64,000 bases of DNA from Guptibacillus hwajinpoensis (GTDB lineage: Bacteria; Bacillota; Bacilli; Bacillales; Guptibacillaceae), in assembly GCF_001039475.1 (NCBI RefSeq), contig NZ_LELK01000004.1:1343086-1407085 (forward strand), given 5' to 3'. Below the pieces are notes generated by a model, which had not been told where the DNA came from, ran no database searches, and was given only the letters and a program-made list of their open reading frames with translations. Position numbers and translations under genes: made by a program. Of the stretch, positions 22,828-57,561 are shown piece after piece (the first letter of the stretch is position 1; each line of letters begins with the position of its first letter).

Positions 22828-22849
22828 TGATATACAAATAGTCGACAGG

Positions 22850-23092
22850 CAAAGATAGGGAGTAGTAGAATGTGACCCCTTCAGAGAGAGAAGTCATTTG
22901 CTGAAAGATTTCTCAGGATTAGAGCATTCGAAGTCGCCCTTGAGCTGTTTCTCTGAACGTGTAGTAGGAGAGACCGGTAAACCCGTTATTCGAATGAAGC
23001 GTACAGCTAAACGCTTATTTAGCTGTAAATAAAGGTGGTACCGCGAAAAAACTTCTTTCGTCCTTTTCCTAAGGATGGAAGAAGTTTTTTTG
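22850..23092 (+). promoter_or_regulatory. T-box riboswitch of valS (specifier GTC)
   Basis: The T-box sequence AAAGGTGGTACCGCG lies at 23031-23045 and is followed by a terminator stem (ACTTCTT...AAGAAGT) ending in seven T at about 23092. Stem I is visible from about 22855. The specifier context GAA-GTC-GCC-CTTGAG places the codon GTC (valine) at 22933-22935. Uncharged tRNA-Val pairs with this codon and stabilises the antiterminator, so valS is expressed when valine is scarce. This leader accounts for the roughly 490 bases between the small membrane gene and valS. Confidence 0.93.
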
Positions 23093-40867: not shown

Positions 40868-40976
40868 TAGTGGTTAGTTCGTTTGGAAGCACCCAAAGAG
40901 CTACAACCGCTCAAGAACAGGTTTTTAAGCTAGTTTCTAGCACCTGCAATGGCGAGTCTTAGTATTAGAGGAGGTG
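40868..40976 (+). ncRNA. L21 leader (rplU autoregulatory 5' UTR)
   Basis: A leader of about 110 bases between a strong promoter and rplU has several short complementary segments (for example AGGTTTTTAAGCTAG near 40919 and CTAGCACCTGC near 40938). Bacillales are known to carry a structured L21 leader at this position that is proposed to mediate feedback by L21. I assign it by position, length and foldability, not by a covariance search. Confidence 0.55.
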
Positions 40977-50749: not shown

Positions 50750-50848
50750 GTGTTTAATAGCAAGGAAGGCATACATAGGGATTGAATTCCTCGCATATTA
50801 ATGTGATGATATTTGCCTTTAAAAAAGGTAGCAATCTGCCCAGTCACG

Positions 50849-50856
50849 CATACACT
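50849..50856 (+). promoter_or_regulatory. Candidate sigma-E -10 element of safA
   Basis: CATACACT matches the sigma-E -10 consensus CATACANT perfectly, 48 bases before the safA start. The -35 position is poorly matched. B. subtilis safA is sigma-E dependent. Confidence 0.45.
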
Positions 50857-50904
50857 GTACTGAATTTCATTGTACTGATATTGTACAGGAGGGAGTTTTT
50901 TAGC

Positions 50905-52836
50905 TTGAAAATACATGTCGTTCAAAAAGGCGATACTTTATGGAAAATCGCTAAAAAATATGGTGTGGATTTTGAACAACTGAAAGCTGTTAATACGCAG
51001 CTCAAGAATCCGGATATGATTATGCCAGGGATGAAAGTGAAGATTCCATCGGGCGGAGTGCCTGTTAAAAAGAAAGAAATGCAAATCAAAGAAATGAAGA
51101 AAGAAATGCCAAAGAAAAAAGAAGCACCTATGATGAAACCGAAAGAAAAGCCATCAATTAATATGCCTATTAATAATGAATTAAATATGGGTTTAAACAT
51201 GAACATGAATATGAGTCCTACAGAAGAAAAACCTAAAAAGGTTAAACCAAAAGCAGTGGAAAAGAAAACAAAGCCTGTTGAAAAGAAAGCTGAAGCAAAA
51301 AAACCTGCACAAAAGAAACCTGTAGAAAAAGCAAAAGGGAAGGCTGAGAACTTATTCTATCCAATGAAAGATGAAGAAGTACTAAGCGAATTTGAATCCT
51401 CTTCTATGGAAATGCCACCTCCACCAGCAATGCCAAATCAAGGTTACCCAGGAACTGTTGGTGGCGTTCAAGGATATGCGGACAAAGGTAATAACGGCTA
51501 TCCTGGTTATCCAAATTCAGTAGGGGGAGCTCATATGGGTTACCCTAATAATCAAAACGTAGCAGGTGCTTATGATGGCTATGGAAACAAAGGGTATCCT
51601 GGCTATCCAGGGTCTGTAGCTGGAACACAAGATTATGGGAATGGTTATCCAAATCAAAACGTAGCAGGTGCTTACCAGGATTATGGAAACAAGGGCAATA
51701 ATGGTTATCCTAACTCTGTAGCCGGAGCAGCGATGAACAATTATGGTCACAAAGGGCAAGACAACTCAGATGTAGCAGGAGCAAGTTCTGGTAATCAGGG
51801 CTACGGTGGGATGCCTGGTTATCCAGGGTCTGTAGCAGGAGCACAAGATTATGGAAACGGTTATCCAAATCAGAATGTAGCAGGGGCTCATCAAGGATAT
51901 GGTAACAATGGTTACCCAGGATCTGTAGCAGGAGCACAAGGATATGGAAACAGCTATCCTAATCAAAATGTAGCAGGCGCCTATCAAGGATATGGAGACA
52001 AAGGAAACAACGGTTATCCTGGTTCCGTAGCCGGAGCAGAGATGAATCAGTATGGTCATAAAGGGGAAGAAAGCCCGGATGTAGCAGGAGCGAGTTATGG
52101 TAATGGCTATCCAAATCAAAATGTAGCCGGTGCTTATCAAGGTTATGGGAACAAAGAAAACAATGGTTATCCTGGCTCTGTAGCAGGAGCAGAGATGAAT
52201 CAGTATGGTCAAAAAGATGAAAGCTCGAGTGTAGCGGGAGCAAGTTATGATAACAAAGGATATGGTGGAATGCCTGGCTCCGTAGCTGGAGCACAAGATT
52301 ATGGAAATGGTTATCCAAACCAGAACGTAGCAGGAGCTTATGAAGGATATGGAAATAAAGGTAACAACGGATATCCGGGATCAGTTGCAGGAGCTTCTGG
52401 CGGCTATCCTCAGCAAATGAATATGGGTTATCCAGGAAATGTAGCGGGAGCCTCAATGAATGGTTATGGTAATCCTGGTTATCCCAGTGATGTAGCAGGA
52501 GCATCAATGCATAACCATGGTAACCCAGGCTATCCAGGAAATGTAGCAGGAATGCAATCACCGTATGCTCATAAAGGAAATGAGGAATATCCGGAAGCAA
52601 TAATGGGTGCATATGCAAACAGTCCCAACCAAAATGTAGGCGGTATGATGATGCCATACCCAAATCAACCAATGGTATCACCGTATCACCAGCAAGATTG
52701 CGGGTGTGGTGGAAACCAGGTATCACCGTATCAGCAAATGCCTCACTACGCTAACCCGGGTTATGTACAGGGAGCCAATAAAGCACCAATGATGGATTAC
52801 ATGGGTATGGAAAGCAGTTATGCAGAATCACGTTAG
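50905..52836 (+). CDS. safA: SafA-like LysM coat morphogenetic protein with long repeat region
   Basis: The 643-residue protein has an N-terminal LysM domain (residues 1-46, 'IHVVQKGDTLWKIAKKYG') that targets the spore cortex. A Lys/Glu/Met/Pro-rich region follows (about 50-155), then a long Gly-Tyr-Asn-Pro region (about 180-600) built on alternating 'GYPNQNVAGAYQGYGN' and 'GYPGSVAGA' modules; VAGA occurs 18 times. The tail has 'QQDCGCGG', possibly for cross-linking. It resembles SafA of B. subtilis (387 residues) and the longer ExsA of B. cereus. SafA organises the inner coat and works with SpoVID. The TTG, 9 bases after AGGAGGGAG, is the start. Confidence 0.9.
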   Translation: MKIHVVQKGDTLWKIAKKYGVDFEQLKAVNTQLKNPDMIMPGMKVKIPSGGVPVKKKEMQIKEMKKEMPKKKEAPMMKPKEKPSINMPINNELNMGLNMNMNMSPTEEKPKKVKPKAVEKKTKPVEKKAEAKKPAQKKPVEKAKGKAENLFYPMKDEEVLSEFESSSMEMPPPPAMPNQGYPGTVGGVQGYADKGNNGYPGYPNSVGGAHMGYPNNQNVAGAYDGYGNKGYPGYPGSVAGTQDYGNGYPNQNVAGAYQDYGNKGNNGYPNSVAGAAMNNYGHKGQDNSDVAGASSGNQGYGGMPGYPGSVAGAQDYGNGYPNQNVAGAHQGYGNNGYPGSVAGAQGYGNSYPNQNVAGAYQGYGDKGNNGYPGSVAGAEMNQYGHKGEESPDVAGASYGNGYPNQNVAGAYQGYGNKENNGYPGSVAGAEMNQYGQKDESSSVAGASYDNKGYGGMPGSVAGAQDYGNGYPNQNVAGAYEGYGNKGNNGYPGSVAGASGGYPQQMNMGYPGNVAGASMNGYGNPGYPSDVAGASMHNHGNPGYPGNVAGMQSPYAHKGNEEYPEAIMGAYANSPNQNVGGMMMPYPNQPMVSPYHQQDCGCGGNQVSPYQQMPHYANPGYVQGANKAPMMDYMGMESSYAESR

Positions 52837-55387: not shown

Positions 55388-55933
55388 ATGAAAAACCTTT
55401 ATCCGATTATTTGGTTAGTGCTTCTCATGACCATCGGCGGGGCTTCAGTGTTAGCTAATGAAGCAAATGGTATTCGTACAGAAAACAGTAAAGTCTCTAT
55501 ACAGCATGAAGTGAACGGACCACTTGAGGTTGAGGTCATTCTTAGGACGAACTATGCGGATGGCGTTTCAACGAAGCAGACTGTGAATGAAACAATATGG
55601 GCCATGGAAGATTTCTGGAGTGAATATGCGAACTGGCAACTTGTCGACCAAGAAGAGGGACGAATGATTTTTGAGCGAAACATTGAAGATATATCTCCTG
55701 CCAGTAAAGAAAGTGGCCACTTCGGACTAACAGAAGATGGGATCCTTTCTATTTTTGATGGTAGCCCATCAGATGAAAAAGTGATTCAAACGTTTTTTCA
55801 AATCGATGTTGGCAAACTCGAAAGCTCAAGACGTGAACAATTGATGGATGGAATTCCAGTTGAGTCATGGTATCACTTTGAAAGCATGCTACAAACATTT
55901 TATAAGGTGAAAAAAGCGAAACCTGTCCAATGA
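55388..55933 (+). CDS. bofC: BofC, inhibitor in the sigma-K checkpoint
   Basis: This 181-residue secreted protein has an N-terminal signal segment ('LYPIIWLVLLMTIGGASVLA') and the two BofC domains; the second contains 'GILSIFDGSPSDEKVIQTFFQ', key residues F-D-G-x-P. In B. subtilis BofC is made in the forespore under sigma-G and restrains SpoIVB, which signals to the SpoIVFA/FB complex encoded upstream here. A terminator follows directly. I did not find a convincing sigma-G promoter by eye. Confidence 0.9.
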   Translation: MKNLYPIIWLVLLMTIGGASVLANEANGIRTENSKVSIQHEVNGPLEVEVILRTNYADGVSTKQTVNETIWAMEDFWSEYANWQLVDQEEGRMIFERNIEDISPASKESGHFGLTEDGILSIFDGSPSDEKVIQTFFQIDVGKLESSRREQLMDGIPVESWYHFESMLQTFYKVKKAKPVQ

Positions 55934-55945
55934 GGACAGGTTTTT
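55919..55945 (+). terminator. Terminator of bofC
   Basis: AAACCTGTCC and GGACAGGTTT pair perfectly around AATGA, which contains the bofC stop, and a T run follows. Confidence 0.9.
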
Positions 55946-55967
55946 GTGTGTCAGGGTCTGCATAGAG

Positions 55968-56893
55968 GATCGCTTTACCATTCAAAACGAACACAAAGAA
56001 CGTGTACGTTTTGAATGCTTCCAGTACCTTTCGGGTCTTAACGGTCGTTTCCGCTTTTCTGATCTAGCTACAGCGACCAGGTCCTCGAACGCTTCACCTT
56101 ACGACCTGAACACAAAGGACGTGTTCATTTCGTAAGGCTCCAGCGTTTTTCGGACCTAACCGGTCGCTTCCGCTTTATTGATCCAGCTGCAGCGACCAGG
56201 TCCTCGAACGCTTCACCTTACGACCTGAACACAAAGGACGTGTTCATTTCGTAAGGCTCCAGCGTTTTTCGGACCTAACCGGTCGCTTCCGCTTTATTGA
56301 TCCAGCTGCAGCGACCAGGTCCTCGAACGCTTCACCTTACGACCTGAACACAAAGGACGTGTTCATTTCGTAAGGCTCCAGCGTTTTTCGGACCTAACCG
56401 GTCGCTTCCGCTTTATTGATCCAGCTGCAGCGACCAGGTCCTCGAACGCTTCACCTTACGACCTGAACACAAAGGACGTGTTCATTTCGTAAGGCTCCAG
56501 CGTTTTTCGGACCTAACCGGTCGCTTCCGCTTTATTGATCCAGCTGCAGCGACCAGGTCCTCGAACGCTTCACCTTACGACCTGAACACAAAGGACGTGT
56601 TCATTTCGTAAGGCTCCAGCGTTTTTCGGACCTAACCGGTCGCTTCCGCTTTATTGATCCAGCTGCAGCGACCAGGTCCTCGAACGCTTCACCTTACGAC
56701 CTGAACACAAAGGACGTGTTCATTTCGTAAGGCTCCAGCGTTTTTCGGACCTAACCGGTCGCTTCCGCTTTATTGATCCAGCTGCAGCGACCAGACCCTC
56801 GGTCACTTCAGCATTCAACCCGAACACAAAAAGCGTGTTCGTTTTGAATGCTTCCAGTGCCTGCCGGGTCTTAACGGTCGCTTCCGCTTTTCG
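55968..56893. repeat. Tandem array of eight 119-bp structured units
   Basis: The motif CACAAA recurs at 55992, 56111, 56230, 56349, 56468, 56587, 56706 and 56825, exactly 119 bases apart. The six central units look identical by eye; the first and last differ. Each unit holds two inverted repeats. Stem A is CTTACGA...GAACAC/GTGTTC...TCGTAAG in central units and CATTCAA...AACAC/GTGT...TTGAATG in the end units. Stem B is GGACCT-aacc-GGTCGCT/AGCGACC-AGGTCC. No credible ORF spans it. It fills the roughly 1-kb gap between bofC and ruvA. From memory, related CTTCCGCTTT/CTAGCT repeats occur in other Bacillaceae. Confidence 0.95.
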
Positions 56894-56902
56894 TTGATAC
56901 TA

Positions 56903-56911
56903 TGGTAGAAT
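56903..56911 (+). promoter_or_regulatory. Possible extended -10 promoter of ruvA
   Basis: TGGTAGAAT is a TGn-extended -10 that begins 10 bases after the repeat array. Any -35 would fall inside the last repeat unit (CCGCTT region), where no consensus is seen. Confidence 0.4.
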
Positions 56912-56958: not shown

Positions 56959-57561
56959 TTGATTGAATATATTAAGGGCACGGTTGAATATATTGATACG
57001 GAGTATATTGTAGTAGAGTCGAATGCTATTGGATATAAAATATATTGTGGTAATCCTTTTGAGTTTCAGAAGTATCGAAATCAGTCGATTCAAATTTTTA
57101 CTCATCATTACGTAAGGGAAGATTTAATCGCGCTTTATGGGTTTCCTACTCGTGAGGAGCGACTATTATTTGAAAAGCTGTTAAACGTTTCAGGTATAGG
57201 TCCAAAAGGAGCTGTCGCTATTCTGGCTACTGGAGAGCCTAATAAAGTTGTCAGTGCTATTGAAATGGAAGACGAGAAGTTTCTTACGAAGTTTCCTGGA
57301 GTTGGGAAGAAAACAGCAAGACAAATCATTCTTGACTTAAAAGGAAAGTTAAAAGGATTTGGGGAACCAACTGAAGGGCTGTTTGCTGCAGAAGAAAGTA
57401 CCGAAGAGGGTTCTCATGAACTCGATGAAGCGATTGAAGCACTTAAGGCGCTAGGCTATGCAGAGCGCGAAATTAAGAAAATTAAGCCAAAGCTAGATGG
57501 TGAAGTTCTAACAACAGATCAATACATTAAAAAAGCACTTCAGCTTATGCTGAAGCAATAA
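56959..57561 (+). CDS. ruvA: RuvA, Holliday-junction binding subunit
   Basis: The 200-residue protein has the OB-fold start '[19 protein letters not shown]', two helix-hairpin-helix motifs ('[14 protein letters not shown]' and '[17 protein letters not shown]') and a C-terminal RuvB-binding domain. The TTG, 9 bases after GGGGGAG, gives the normal length; the upstream extension lacks similarity. It is paired with ruvB, 12 bases downstream. Confidence 0.95.

Follow-up and report, generated by a model that had tools for sequence, protein, structure and literature searches.

The bofC-ruvA tandem array of Guptibacillus hwajinpoensis read as a local stack of a dispersed palindromic repeat of the Bacillales

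Described repeat families and the repeat treated here

REP, BIME and REPIN sequences are, in the available parts of two sources, dispersed intergenic palindromes that can form single-stranded hairpins, occur in local clusters and are thought to be non-autonomous (PMC3733652, PMC8049555). The same accessible portion of the first source gives REPs a length of 20-40 bp and lists RUP, NEMIS and ERIC as MITEs (PMC3733652). Stem-loop families have also been reported from Bacillus, namely Bcr1 (147-167 bp), Bant-1 and Bhal-1 (74 bp, B. halodurans), each described, as far as the available text goes, in tens of copies (PMC2267715). Group IIC introns, in turn, are described in the accessible part of a further source as inserting at intrinsic terminators (PMC4424553).

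In the window, by which we mean the 64,000-nucleotide stretch of Guptibacillus hwajinpoensis DNA that was analysed, a head-to-tail array with a period of 119 bp sits between bofC and ruvA. We read this array as a local stack of a dispersed, non-coding palindromic repeat of the Bacillales that is REP/BIME- and MITE-like in kind. The features that place it in the broad class of dispersed extragenic palindromic repeats are its many intergenic copies and its conserved hairpin. It differs from the REPs of the available source in its unit of about 110 nt, as against 20-40 bp (PMC3733652), and from both REPs and REPINs in that its arm sequence varies with pairing kept and that its copies lie mostly in one orientation after terminators. 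By eye, no GTAG/CGTC tag is present in the unit consensus, whose ends read AGCTGC.. and ..CCGCTTT. With MITEs the repeat shares its shortness, its lack of coding capacity and its terminal inverted repeats. MITE ends are bound by sequence, whereas the outer arms here vary with two-sided change and sequence-conserved terminal inverted repeats were not found. The repeat is mostly sited at intrinsic terminators, as are group IIC introns in the text available (PMC4424553), but its unit is only about 110 nt long and the genome that carries it has no RVT_1 match. Bcr1, Bant-1 and Bhal-1 resemble it as stem-loop families of Bacillus with tens of copies, and the lengths of Bcr1 and Bhal-1 set these two apart by description, not by sequence, within the accessible account (PMC2267715). 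A likeness to integron attC sites was dropped for want of paired end boxes.

A match of the unit to a fully described family would have overturned the initial annotation. The papers that could be searched yielded no matching description, Bhal-1 being compared by description only. Similar, unnamed repeats presumably occur in other Bacillus genomes. As far as this search extends, the repeat is real, widespread and unnamed, and REP/BIME-like but failing the tests for movement by a RAYT.

The array and its hairpin unit

By their Pfam matches, the genes around the array are yebC, bofC, ruvA and ruvB. The features of the intergenic region, with units given in the phase of the hairpin, are as follows.

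55388..55933, + strand: bofC, the gene on the left (Pfam BofC_C 1e-27, BOFC_N 2e-19)
55919..55950, + strand: terminator hairpin AAACCTGTCC..GGACAGGTTTTT, overlapping the bofC stop; the array begins downstream
55968..56057, + strand: unit 1, 5'-incomplete, left outer arm missing (nhmmer match from model position 22)
56066..56176, + strand: unit 2, complete palindrome, one base from units 3-7 (R1, 121.6 bits)
56177..56184, + strand: junction spacer ATTGATCC, the same at all six complete-unit junctions
56185..56295, + strand: unit 3, complete (R1, 122.5 bits)
56304..56414, + strand: unit 4, identical to unit 3 (R1 match and unit comparison)
56423..56533, + strand: unit 5, identical to unit 3 (R1 match and unit comparison)
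56542..56652, + strand: unit 6, identical to unit 3 (R1 match and unit comparison)
56661..56771, + strand: unit 7, identical to unit 3 (R1 match and unit comparison)
56780..56890, + strand: unit 8, complete, other subtype, 37 differences over 119 bases (R1, 121 bits)
56903..56911, + strand: extended -10-like TGGTAGAAT ahead of ruvA (by eye; alike in several relatives)
56959..57561, + strand: ruvA, the gene on the right (Pfam RuvA_N, HHH_5, RuvA_C)

A tandem-repeat scan reports a period of 119 over 56042-56844, with 6.7 copies, 97% matches and 0% indels, and the units are spaced by 119 at every step, which bears out the constant period first described for this array. The eight units of that description resolve, in hairpin phase, into seven complete units that begin at 56066 and recur every 119 bases to 56780, together with a 5'-incomplete unit ending at 56057. 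Likewise, five of the six central units said to be identical are so (the second to sixth of the seven complete units), the first complete unit differing from them by a single base and the last by 37 of 119; in the phase used earlier, rows 2-6 are identical and row 7 deviates near its end. The incomplete first unit scores 48.7 bits over 55947-56057 with the covariance model R1 and by eye is of the same subtype as unit 8, and the junction that follows it differs from the ATTGATCC spacer of the other six. At the left border, the + strand version of the bofC terminator lies 26 nt ahead of the array (-13.8 kcal/mol), and its stem is listed at 55919-55943 on the - strand. At the right border, a consensus promoter scan before ruvA returned nothing at its threshold, and we place the ruvA start at the TTG at 56959, the mechanical reading frame opening at 56902.

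The folding of the array is beyond chance. One unit folds at -52.2 kcal/mol, as against -27.7 for shuffled sequences (z -6.9; 0 of 200 shuffles as good), and both strands fold better than all 200 shuffles. Judged from single copies, the unit forms a single imperfect palindrome about 110 nt long, which opens with AGCTGC and closes with CCGCTTT; its loop and its internal loops are conserved. The self-complementarity that had been divided into a stem A and a stem B thus stands, but is better described as one long hairpin, stem B arising where the 3' arm of a unit pairs with the 5' arm of the unit that follows it. Several subtypes of the unit exist, here labelled A, B and C, and a single array can mix them. 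The covariance model R1 was built from 57 units. The two arms change together: among 42 distinct A-type units 95.6% of cells are paired, two-sided change occurs in 21 of 36 pairs, and 235 cells carry such change, as against 68 +/- 9 in shuffles. When the partner is shifted by one to three columns, A-type pairing falls to 28-46%.

Elsewhere in the window, Rfam matches are ordinary (a T-box leader at 22843-23068, an L21 leader at 40895-40969 and a tRNA at 471-544). A 684-aa open reading frame at 50782-52836 encodes what by eye is a LysM-like protein of spore-coat type, with degenerate YPxxVAGA-type repeats that register as tandem repeats; from its position we take it to be SafA-like.

Distribution, polarity and junctions of the repeat

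The repeat is dispersed, polar in its siting and variable in its presence. A DNA query of two units has 47 matches in the G. hwajinpoensis genome, and the R1 search finds at least 94 units there (150 of 846 first-look candidates scored), which by our count among the R1 matches fall in 32 places, the bofC-ruvA array being one. The comparison with other genomes, foreseen in the initial annotation, extends this picture: units are present in 35 of the 41 genomes searched with R1 (93 candidates scored per genome), comprising all 14 of the genus (own genome included), with 47 to at least 93 units each, and, of 27 further genomes from the family and order, 21, all counts across these genomes being lower bounds. 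RuvA similarity to named records places the genus at or near Pseudalkalibacillus. Plasmid and phage collections contain no unit match at E 1e-5, and an origin from either was rejected on that ground. Within the G. hwajinpoensis genome, arrays look regionally clustered on contigs C7 and C14: among the matches listed (150 of 846 candidates scored), C7 has none at about 0.27-0.94 Mb and C14 none in its first 0.97 Mb.

In eight named relatives (L036-L043, of which L041 starts inside the array, at a contig end) the bofC-ruvA site itself has from 1 to 5 matches to the model, their subtype varying, and in P. caeni (L044) it has none. Orthologous regions were fetched for 12 loci, six of which were read by eye for empty sites; among 32 orthologous sites at these six loci, in up to six relatives, 18 are filled, one retains a right-arm remnant, and 13 are empty. 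Several empty sites at L009, L013 and L024 present a single terminator beside the opposite stop codon. At L009, for example, the empty site of the relative G003 has only AAAAGCGGCGTCC..GGACGTCGCTTTT ahead of the right gene, and the G007 site combines a truncated right arm with a similar terminator. At L010, L018 and L025 the empty sites have tens of bases or more between terminator and stop. Empty sites may never have been filled, or may have lost their units.

Polarity was assessed at 30 of the 32 places, two at contig ends being left out, with gene contexts taken from mechanical reading frames; at some loci (L018, L019, L022, L026, L095) the left frame is short or runs into the array. The frame to the left is co-oriented with the element at 27 of the 30 loci and opposite at three; a forward terminator lies within about 200 nt to the left at 20, and a reverse terminator to the right at one, the terminator of L013 having been missed by the scan because it falls inside the stretch taken as array. 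At the 15 convergent gene pairs, which show ten left and no right terminators, the right end of the element lies 0-6 nt from the opposite stop codon in ten cases and is overlapped by the opposite frame in three. Between tandem genes, the element faces with the genes in 12 of 14 cases. The 3' end of the last unit is complete at 29 of 30 loci, and at 17 the leftmost unit lacks its start, the cut falling at model position 9 or beyond; by eye, ten of the 12 loci where the leftmost HMM match begins at position 1 also show a shorter 3' remnant. Since several intact right ends have more than 40 nt before the next frame, gene constraint alone does not explain the polarity. At 22 loci of three other families (genomes G040, G023 and G033), the left frame is co-oriented in 16, a terminator lies to the left in ten and to the right in one, and in 11 the distance from the right end to an opposite stop codon is 0-6 nt; these counts omit eight G037 loci, at least three of which (L162, L174, L178) were wrongly oriented by the automatic procedure. 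The layout is thus common in part beyond the genus, and less sharp than inside it.

With the origin and dif located, arrays mostly point away from the replication origin. Replication was rejected as what sets their orientation, because in G007 and G010 several left-arm loci near the origin do not conform; for this reason gene direction seemed the better fit.

In two genus members, a single unit lies between the 23S and 5S rRNA genes of three operons (L155:2297-2407, L156:2444-2554 and L157:2274-2384, all on the - strand, with the same score in all three). Its direction is opposite to that of the operon and its distance from the 23S 3' end is about 6 nt, the two of three operons that were read agreeing in this; a link to rRNA processing is possible.

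Spacers between units are short (7-11 nt), are often repeated within a locus, and begin like their own 3' flank: over 80 spacers from 28 loci the mean matching prefix is 5.91, as against 4.20 in permuted data, a value reached in 0 of 20000 permutations. In this comparison the spacer strings of L029 and L094 were dropped as really being 3' flank, and the flank starts of the window, L031 and L012 were set by hand. A CRISPR array was rejected, the spacers not being unique. Among 45 junctions of adjacent complete units at 15 loci, identical spacers occur in different subtype contexts at one locus in 9 of 37 comparisons, and in equal contexts at different loci in 1 of 241; the nine pairs come from four loci, and seven of them from L013 and L017, which have duplicated unit pairs. 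The spacer pattern would follow from insertion that copies a short stretch of target, or from duplication that takes flank bases along; the sharing of spacers between subtypes favours insertion. No age gradient runs along the arrays: compared with the first complete unit, the last is more stable at eight of 15 loci, less stable at five and equal at two. By eye, units at L010:3115-3224, L019:3071-3180 and L011:3201-3311 are chimeric, with arms of two subtypes that switch near the conserved loop, and they fold worse than their neighbours.

How the repeat may spread

The account that we cautiously favour holds that a DNA element recognised by shape joins at hairpin-plus-T tails, a step that we infer, and is then multiplied by the host. 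A new copy would join in fixed orientation beside a hairpin with a T-rich tail, the landing site being either an intrinsic terminator or an earlier unit, at its CGCTTTT end. The element's own 3' terminus resembles this target, so that copies would stack head to tail, each junction retaining a few bases copied from the 3' flank. Single units, as the near-identical central units suggest, or unit pairs could then be multiplied by slippage or unequal exchange. The hairpin would be recognised as DNA by its shape and not by the sequence of its arms. Against the insertion step, the match between spacer and flank is also explicable by tandem duplication or by the leftover spacer of a lost unit. The lack of an age gradient, the three loci with an opposite left frame, the rRNA unit that faces its operon and the less sharp layout in other families also count against the favoured account. 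Dispersed copies, patchy orthologous sites and local amplification lend support, to the extent that sequence can, to the non-autonomous mobile or amplifying element that had been among the initial suggestions, and a function special to ruvAB, also suggested, finds no support, the same element being present beside other genes. Any benefit to the host, such as insulation or 3' end structure, is hypothetical. A bolder form of the favoured account, possible in our estimation although on balance not probable, is that the element homes one-way to the hairpin-plus-T tail of terminators, is recognised by hairpin shape and ends in a mimic of its target, such that each insertion would create the next landing site and build mosaic arrays at gene ends across the Bacillales, with neither reverse transcriptase nor Y1 transposase.

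Improbable, though the strongest of the alternatives, is that no insertion machinery is involved and that an old repeat expands, shrinks and converts through host replication slippage and recombination. Near-identical central units, the amplified unit pairs of L013 and L017 and the chimeric units near the conserved loop are all consistent with such a process, as is the failure of the Y1_Tnp and RVT_1 searches to find a mobiliser, and the empty sites could be losses. It accounts less readily for the wide variation at orthologous sites, 13 of 32 being empty, and for a locus-specific spacer common to different subtypes, which would be hard for conversion to produce through short shared ends.

We consider it unlikely that a resident Y1 (RAYT-like) transposase moves the repeat as a REPIN/REP population by acting on its hairpins in single-stranded form. 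The hairpin is kept by shape, dispersed and locally arrayed, as such a population would be, and Y1_Tnp matches occur in 37 of 41 genomes, with at least two in each of the 14 genus genomes and four, three of them in long open frames, in G. hwajinpoensis. However, no unit was found beside these four Y1 genes (about 1.5 kb on each side, six array queries; best E 0.011), and two genomes with units, G027 (28) and G026 (11), have no Y1_Tnp match; nor do G020, with one unit, and G029, with none. In these respects the repeat departs from REPIN/RAYT systems, and its unit is longer than the 20-40 bp of REPs in the source as available (PMC3733652). RAYT-moved REPINs or REPs were rejected on three counts, namely RAYT presence, RAYT-flanking copies and a short tagged REP. 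A protein at L034:1468-2061 is Y1_Tnp-like over positions 5-60 of the 121-position model only, in a frame open for 198 aa.

Comparably unlikely is a structured RNA, in which selection would act on the RNA fold of a 3' UTR or of an element resembling a terminator; a structured RNA had also been proposed at the outset. The strong fold on both strands, the siting at gene ends and the lone 23S-5S unit in three operons of two relatives speak for it; wobble pairing, which is rare on both strands, speaks against it. Alignment A1 has 12 G-T and 18 A-C among 1503 cells, and A3 (150 of 166 model matches, 139 distinct, fitted to the model's own structure) has 22 G-T (0.5%) and 42 A-C among 4304 cells, its non-paired cells being mostly neither (217 of 281). 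By comparison, of 783 pairs in 36 distinct tRNAs from fetched loci, 48 (6.1%) are G-T, a yardstick limited to ARAGORN-drawn pairs in tRNAs of mixed organisms. Because a selected RNA strand should tolerate its G-T, arms that vary together with little wobble on either strand suggest a structure kept as DNA; more broadly, the low wobble argues for a structure kept as DNA or for one arm copied from the other. The slight surplus of A-C over G-T, where A-C is wobble on the - strand, leaves some room for an RNA read from that strand. No Rfam family matches the repeat at the gathering score, weaker matches below it being taken as chance; by eye, no canonical U-tract directly follows the stem on either strand; and presence at orthologous genes is patchy.

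That the copy number is an assembly artefact is very improbable: near-identical 119-bp units and two draft-relative contigs that end in or near arrays (L106, L108) would fit it, but the same address holds 1 to 5 unit matches in the eight named relatives and multi-unit arrays also occur in two one-contig genomes. Least plausible of all is retro-insertion, whether target-primed or in the manner of a group IIC intron. It would account for the truncated 5' ends, the intact 3' ends and the targeting of terminators, and it accords with the polarity and with the terminator motifs at which group IIC introns insert according to the available text (PMC4424553), but RVT_1 (PF00078) has no match in the G. 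hwajinpoensis genome (G000) or in nine of 13 genus-mates, each with at least 56 units except G011 with 47, and an RNA copy is not expected to give locus-specific spacers. Given the carriers that lack Y1_Tnp, the absence of units beside Y1 genes and the missing RVT_1, a RAYT does not suffice as a general explanation of the spread, nor does a reverse transcriptase.

The repeat is widespread across an order of well-studied bacteria, yet it matches no Rfam family and no description in the papers that could be searched. As a hairpin repeat, it carries the warning that covarying arms alone are no proof of RNA. Its covarying arms, its mostly one-way siting at terminators and its locus-specific junctions constrain how it spreads without an obvious transposase.
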